Shown one piece after another: positions 8,365-42,314 of a stretch of 64,000 nucleotides of DNA. The stretch is taken from assembly GCF_964355755.1 (NCBI RefSeq), contig NC_092674.1:29810001-29874000 (forward strand), written 5' to 3'. The notes under the pieces were generated by a model. The model worked only from the letters and a program-made list of their open reading frames with translations. It made no database searches and had not been told where the DNA came from. This DNA is from Antedon mediterranea. Lineage: Eukaryota > Echinodermata > Crinoidea > Comatulida > Antedonidae. Made by a program: the position numbers and the translations under genes. Numbering within the stretch: position 1 is the stretch's first letter; each line of letters opens with the position of its first letter.

Positions 8365-8436
8365 GGGGATGTAGCTCAGTGGTAGAGCGCTTGCTTTGCA
8401 TGTAGGAGGCCCCGGGTTCAATCCCCGGCATCTCCA
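8365..8436 (+). tRNA. tRNA-Ala (anticodon TGC), copy 1
   Basis: This is a complete 72-nt cloverleaf. Acceptor GGGGATG pairs with CATCTCC (one G-T), followed by discriminator A; the D arm is GCTC/GAGC, the anticodon loop TTTGCAT gives TGC, and the T arm is CCGGG/CCCGG with loop TTCAATC. The internal A box (TAGCTCAGTGG) and B box (GGTTCAATCCC) are intact. It has no intron. It is followed after CAA by a run of T's from 8440, a strong Pol III terminator. The CCA end is not encoded, as expected in animals. Confidence 0.97.
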
Positions 8437-8439
8437 CAA

Positions 8440-8643: not shown

Positions 8644-8715
8644 GGGGATGTAGCTCAGTGGTAGAGCGCTTGCTTTGCATGTAGGAGGCCCCGGGTTCAA
8701 TCCCCGGCATCTCCA
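8644..8715 (+). tRNA. tRNA-Ala (anticodon TGC), copy 2
   Basis: Its 72 nt are identical to copy 1, 279 bp downstream on the same strand. Flanks differ except for the immediate CAATTT after the tRNA. A TTTT stop occurs at about 8722. Identity of the genes with diverged spacers suggests gene conversion or a recent local duplication limited to the tRNA body. Confidence 0.97.
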
Positions 8716-8793
8716 CAATTTGTTTTATTTTTATCTGTACCTGTTTTTGATCACCGTGACAATTCAAAAAATGTCATTTAAAAATATTAATAC

Positions 8794-8836
8794 CTGTGTA
8801 CAGGGAGTTGTTATTAGAACAACTCCCTGCTGTGTA
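8794..8836. mobile_element. 29-bp micro-palindromic insertion with 7-bp target duplication
   Basis: The perfect hairpin at 8801-8829 has 12-bp arms CAGGGAGTTGTT / AACAACTCCCTG and a 5-nt loop ATTAG. It is flanked directly on both sides by CTGTGTA (8794-8800 and 8830-8836). The same CAGGGAG terminus and a 7-bp duplication also define the 50-bp insert at 42240-42289. A minimal non-autonomous transposon is the simplest reading. It is too small to hold more than termini. Confidence 0.6.
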
Positions 8837-42114: not shown

Positions 42115-42314
42115 TTAAAGCTCTGTCTACACTATCAAACTTTATATGACAAAAAAATGTGATGTGCCTATATGGACACGATGATGTCATATTATCACTA
42201 CCATATTTGGGCACACTTTTGTTGCCAAACTAGTTTGATCAGGGAGGTGAAAAATAATATTATAATAATAATATTTTTTCGCCTCCCTGGTTTGATAGTG
42301 TAGACAGAGCTTTA
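42115..42314. mobile_element. MITE family A copy hosting a nested insertion
   Basis: The full left end is TTAAAGCTCTGTCTACACTAT (broken at 20 here) and the right end GATAGTGTAGACAGAGCTTTA. The element is interrupted at 42240 by a 50-bp palindrome. Removing the insert and one copy of GTTTGAT restores the normal family sequence. Confidence 0.75.
42233..42296. mobile_element. 50-bp micro-palindromic insertion with 7-bp target duplication, nested in a MITE
   Basis: The insert 42240-42289 starts CAGGGAGGTGAAAAA and ends TTTTTTCGCCTCCCTG; the two are inverse with one mismatch. The core is an AT-only stretch of ATA/ATT. It is flanked by GTTTGAT at 42233-42239 and 42290-42296. The pre-insertion site is known from other MITE copies (AGTTTGATAGTGTAG), so the duplication is a real insertion scar. 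Confidence 0.75.

Follow-up and report, generated by a model that had tools for sequence, protein, structure and literature searches.

A 50-bp palindrome interrupting a MITE copy in a 64,000-nucleotide stretch of the Antedon mediterranea genome (C5:29810001-29874000, hereafter the window) is very probably the footprint of an excised P-superfamily DNA transposon, closed by end joining. Palindromes of this kind, present at hundreds of places in the genome, are best read as scars rather than as mobile units.

Short palindromes in the window

The insert (Table 1) reads as a 19-nt left arm, about 13 nt of AT-rich filler and an 18-nt right arm. The GTTTGAT copies on its two sides form an exact 7-bp duplication. 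A genome search with the host MITE returned 79 matches, which include no fewer than 40 separately scored copies. The long forward alignments, that of the window copy excepted, ended at query position 118–132, before or just inside the insert. When the MITE flanks joined with a single GTTTGAT were compared with 29 fetched copies, 28 of these were uninterrupted at the site and had one GTTTGAT, in some cases mutated; CAGGGAG/CTCCCTG tips were absent from the position of the insert in all 29. The first-pass annotation had described a separate insertion within one MITE copy, framed by an exact duplication of GTTTGAT and related to a second insert at 8801. The alignment of the MITE copies upheld the first two points, and the kinship was supported by the CAGGGAG-type ends of the 8801 insert and by its own exact 7-bp duplication, CTGTGTA. 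The arm type of the MITE insert was seen at 22 further places in the genome. Two tRNA-Ala (TGC) genes were observed upstream of the 8801 insert, at window positions 8365-8437 and 8644-8716.

Table 1. Features of the two palindromic inserts and of the host MITE (window positions)
Feature	Position	Strand	Remarks
Left 7-bp duplication CTGTGTA of the second insert	8794..8800
Second insert CAGGGAGTTGTTATTAGAACAACTCCCTG	8801..8829		29 bp; TTGTTATTAG subfamily; core recurs at unrelated sites
Right 7-bp duplication CTGTGTA of the second insert	8830..8836
Host MITE, family A	42116..42314		interrupted by the palindrome; inverted repeats of 25 bp without mismatch at 42116-42140 and 42290-42314
Left copy of the 7-bp target-site duplication GTTTGAT	42233..42239		empty site in other MITE copies; fits consensus GTTWAAC
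Palindromic insert CAGGGAGGTGAAAAATAATATTATAATAATAATATTTTTTCGCCTCCCTG	42240..42289		50 bp
Left arm CAGGGAGGTGAAAAATAAT, terminal inverted repeat remnant	42240..42258	+	GGTGAAAAAATAAT subfamily, one A fewer
Putative AT-rich filler at the join ATTATAATAATAA	42259..42271		limits uncertain by 1–2 nt; compared with T-nucleotide insertions
Right arm CAGGGAGGCGAAAAAATA (minus-strand reading), remnant of the opposite terminal inverted repeat	42272..42289	-
Right copy of the target-site duplication GTTTGAT	42290..42296		continuous with the original MITE end

Genome-wide distribution and target sites

Related termini are abundant elsewhere. At least 834 sites of the form CAGGGAG(N10-40)CTCCCTG were found in the 354-Mb genome, vs. 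2 sites for the reversed pattern used as a control, an excess far too large for chance. The tip subfamilies were TTGTAAAATAA, TTGTTATTAG, ATGTAAAATAA, and GGTATAAAATAA; the insert in the MITE belongs to GGTGAAAAAATAAT. Among the sites listed, which are the first along the chromosomes of one assembly and not a random sample, 41 distinct sites were read with their flanks. An exact 7-bp duplication was found at 21 of them and a duplication with at most one mismatch at 27; the cross-site control gave no exact duplication and 28 with at most one mismatch among 1640 pairs. Exact 6-bp repeats were found at three and exact 8-bp repeats at two of the 41 sites. The target consensus, derived from 131 right flanks (the 7-mer following the palindromes of two subfamilies), was the palindromic GTTWAAC, with the frequencies G(0.47) T(0.76) T(0.51) W A(0.44) A(0.72) C(0.36).

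A parent transposon and its possible relation to P transposases

Some CAGGGAG tips lead into long sequence rather than into a palindrome, and the larger elements with related ends to which the first-pass annotation had pointed do exist. A 78-nt end, CAGGGAGTTGTTATTAGATGGAGTAACATC..., was present in 12 places, ten of them full-length at 99–100% identity and two partial. In the copy at C2:6308856, the 5' end is preceded by AGCTAAG. A genome search for CTCCCTGAGCTAAG gave just two places, one of which was C2:6311403-6311416; since AGCTAAG was found again there, the element occupies C2:6308856-6311409, its length of 2,554 bp being deduced from the duplicated 7-mer and not read through. This parent element has CAGGGAG ends, an exact 7-bp duplication AGCTAAG on both sides, and about ten near-identical copies. 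An inner CAGGGAACTCCCTG, located approximately 1 kb into the element, was considered as its 3' end and rejected because the sequence beyond it was identical in two copies. The inverted repeat of the parent appears to be only about 18 bp long, judging from a related 60-bp derivative. In the part that was read, the parent seems to have two genes running towards each other, with putative exon limits.

A 94-residue stretch of the minus-strand gene retrieved the copies of the parent and, at lower significance, four further open reading frames, with matches of E about 0.001 at 36% identity and of E 0.26. Three of the four coincide in open-frame length and neighbouring position with hits to PF21787, the RNase-H domain of P transposases: C3:12882968 (617 aa), C6:31444020 (617 aa), and C5:16166642 (538 aa). 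No P hit was listed beside the fourth (C4:13298798). The PF21787 hits had been found independently of the search with the parent exon and number only 35 in the genome, so the coincidence is hard to explain by chance, though each match is weak. A Pfam search with two exon fragments of the parent gave nothing significant. The parent is weakly linked to P-transposase reading frames, and we take it, short of full proof, for a P-superfamily element on this sequence evidence. The parent is probably non-autonomous.

We found no autonomous element bearing CAGGGAG ends, and a by-eye comparison revealed no P-domain hit near enough to the listed CAGGGAG arms to belong to one element with them. An uninterrupted 794-aa reading frame for a P-type transposase with RNase-H and GTP-binding domains was found at L076:1081-3465 (C1:2823415). 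Its domain score is identical at C3:37950354 and C8:6208861, i.e., in three places, and the predicted transposase of this type has possibly been active recently. As an autonomous partner of the palindromes, this reading frame was rejected: neither CAGGGAG ends nor convincing inverted repeats were present within 5 kb. A 323-aa reading frame of unknown kind adjoins it on the opposite strand.

Arm lengths and central joins

In the TTGTTATTAG subfamily, represented by 77 palindromes, the left arm matched the transposon end over 17 nt (21 palindromes), 18 nt (35), 19 nt (20), or 20 nt (1), the 17-nt class being the minimum imposed by the search pattern. No left arm of this subfamily matched beyond 20 nt, where the long element itself goes on with ATGGAGTAAC. 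Among 82 sites that had not been selected by arm, 26 arms (both sides counted) were 18 nt long, but only 3 were of 19 nt, 2 of 20 nt, and 2 of 21 nt. All arm lengths were measured against ends inferred from the long elements, and they would place the cut at 18 or 19 nt. The joins in the 77 sites of the TTGTTATTAG subfamily were overlaps of 1–2 nt (34), blunt (21), or contained filler (22). The overlap was slightly above that of a random-join simulation (mean 0.76 vs. 0.60, P about 0.03, simple model). At C9:20249073-20249148, three direct copies of one 18-nt arm stand in a row, followed by a closing arm; the arrangement resembles filler templated repeatedly at a single join.

The first-pass annotation had regarded the palindrome itself as a jumping element, belonging to a family whose only conserved part is its ends. 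Conservation of the ends only was confirmed, but it is better explained by the repair of an excision break than by a family of tiny mobile palindromes. As mobile elements, the 24–50-bp palindromes would be non-autonomous and mobilised in trans by a transposase needing only the first 7–18 bp of each end. Like MITEs in general, they are short, palindromic, non-coding, flanked by target duplications, and present in hundreds of copies; their ends are constant, the duplications are of 7 bp, and some identical sequences occur at unrelated sites, e.g., CAGGGAGTTGTTATTAGAACTCCCTG with several different flanks. Mobility, however, predicts shared cores, and unlike MITEs in general the palindromes as a set have no common core: roughly every second sampled copy has a join of its own (41 distinct sequences among the 77 sites of the TTGTTATTAG subfamily). 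Where joins recur at unrelated sites, most are plain end-to-end joins. Larger cores that recur, where checkable, have common flanks (a 45-bp core in L005 and L071; TTAGACAACTCCCTGTATAAACTAAATAATC in four places) and, as far as sequence comparison indicates, ride within bigger repeats. Unlike those of MITEs, the arms also have a fixed limit, 17–20 nt in from the transposon end. The transposase would have to act on molecules of 24–50 bp, and a 24-bp molecule is too small for the subterminal transposase sites used by P elements, which also counts against mobility. Together with the anatomy of the junctions, which is that of P-element excision, these observations make independent mobility of such palindromes unlikely, and the earlier reading of the insert as a mobile micro-element is probably wrong.

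A mixed origin, in which the palindromes formed as scars and then became mobile by transposase through their two intact tips, so that part of the 834 sites would be true micro-insertions, we consider unlikely. If it were true, few known mobile DNA elements would be as small as these 24–50-bp palindromes.

Ordinary internal-deletion derivatives, produced by interrupted gap repair after excision and shrunk to almost nothing, are a very improbable source of the set. Longer derivatives do exist, e.g., a 60-bp one at C1:31705211 that retains approximately 30 nt of each end. Internal deletion, however, predicts breakpoints anywhere, and nearly all of those observed lie within approximately 20 nt of the ends: 834 matches at 24–54 bp vs. 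only 45 genome-wide at 55–85 bp, many of the latter being other repeats, arrays, or accidental pairs and not simple palindromes. That the palindrome is a feature of a MITE subfamily and not a separate insertion is practically excluded by the empty sites in other MITE copies, even if nested repeats can be copied together, as seen for other scars; in apparently the same MITE family, moreover, other scars lie at different positions (C4:29147523, C4:3474728, and C2:37086188).

Comparison with known excision junctions

Excision junctions of the P element in Drosophila begin with an 8-bp duplication, followed by as much as 17 nt of the inverted repeat, a join, inverted repeat again, and the second duplication (Chan, Yu and McVey 2010, Table 1; PMC2895639). 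Their joins have microhomology of 1–3 bases or AT-rich insertions such as TAATAATAATATAA (PMC2895639). P transposase cuts the 3' end at the element tip, whereas on the other strand it cuts within the inverted repeat, at 17 nt. This staggered cut, described as unusual to P (PMC7776569), leaves 17-nt tails on the flanking DNA. The palindromes described here resemble these junctions in the duplication, the trimmed asymmetric inverted-repeat arms, and joins with microhomology, blunt ends, or AT-rich T-nucleotide filler (PMC2895639). They differ in the length of the duplication (7 bp instead of 8 bp), in arms of approximately 18–19 nt, and in the end sequence; furthermore, the Drosophila junctions are laboratory events, whereas those of the crinoid are natural genomic fossils.

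The features of an excision footprint were thus found together: the target-site duplication kept on both sides (exactly at 21 of the 41 sites read with flanks), arms corresponding to the outermost transposon end and stopping at the staggered-cut distance (17–20 nt), and a centre that varies from site to site through trimming, microhomology, blunt joining, or AT-rich filler. A 7- or 8-bp duplication at a palindromic target, a feature of the P superfamily, was also present (AGCTAAG in the parent, GTTWAAC for the palindromes). Since the anatomy is that of the published P-element junctions, with 7 bp for 8 bp and approximately 18 nt for 17 nt, we interpret the insert in the MITE as an end-joined excision footprint.

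For the excision footprint, the course of events would be as follows. A P-type element with CAGGGAG... inverted-repeat ends would have inserted into the MITE copy, duplicating the 7-bp GTTTGAT. A transposase would later have excised it, cutting one strand exactly at the end and the other approximately 18 nt inside the inverted repeat, so that each side of the gap would have retained the target duplication and a single-stranded inverted-repeat tail of approximately 18 nt. The tails would then have been end-joined with trimming, microhomology, or AT-rich filler of the polymerase theta kind. As the two tails are inverted copies of each other, the product would be a short palindrome with constant ends, a variable centre, and intact target duplications. 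We infer the staggered cut, the repair pathway, and the former presence of a full element at this site of the window.

Galileo, a member of the P superfamily, makes 7-bp duplications at a palindromic consensus, GTANTAC (PMC4168063). The best explanation of the data is that the transposons of the parent family are Galileo-like in the length of the duplication and in having a palindromic target (GTTWAAC here, GTANTAC in Galileo). Many copies of Galileo are long foldback elements whose inverted repeats are long as well, unlike the 2,554-bp parent with its apparently short repeat.

Other probable scar families and arrays

Exact 7-bp duplications were also found around short CA...TG palindromes with other tips: CATAGAGATATTATAG... 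/ CATAGAGATATT at L059:2143, CAAAGAATAT... at L062:1208, and CATGGAGGTAT...ATACCTCCATG at L073:2611. A 7-bp duplication likewise surrounds such a palindrome with CATGGAGGTAT...ATACCTCCATG tips in L008. These palindromes are probably scars of other P-like families, so that more than one such family would have left its traces in the genome. At L008:1494-1579 (C1:2816765 region), a CAGGGAG scar lies beside a CATGGAGG scar, with three copies of GTCAAAC standing between and around the two; judging from this arrangement, one element seems to have used the target duplication of the other for its insertion. A tandem array at C3:297727-298560 has a unit composed of a 38-bp palindrome and the 7-bp spacer ATTGGCT, with a period of 45 bp and some units of 61 bp. 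This small satellite seems to have arisen from a scar together with its target duplication.

Significance of the probable scars

Excision scars as a kind are already known. In the literature searched, we found neither a description of such palindromes as a repeat family nor a genome-wide fossil set of excision scars of this size. The findings advise caution in annotation, because palindromic repeats as short as these, when framed by target duplications, may be miscatalogued as miniature transposons. Each scar is a record of one natural germline double-strand break, preserving both the place of the cut and the mode of rejoining. From sequence alone, the scars give an estimate of the cut offset (about 18 nt) and of the target preference of an uncharacterised P-type transposase, as well as the balance of blunt, microhomology, and filler repair in an animal without genetics.
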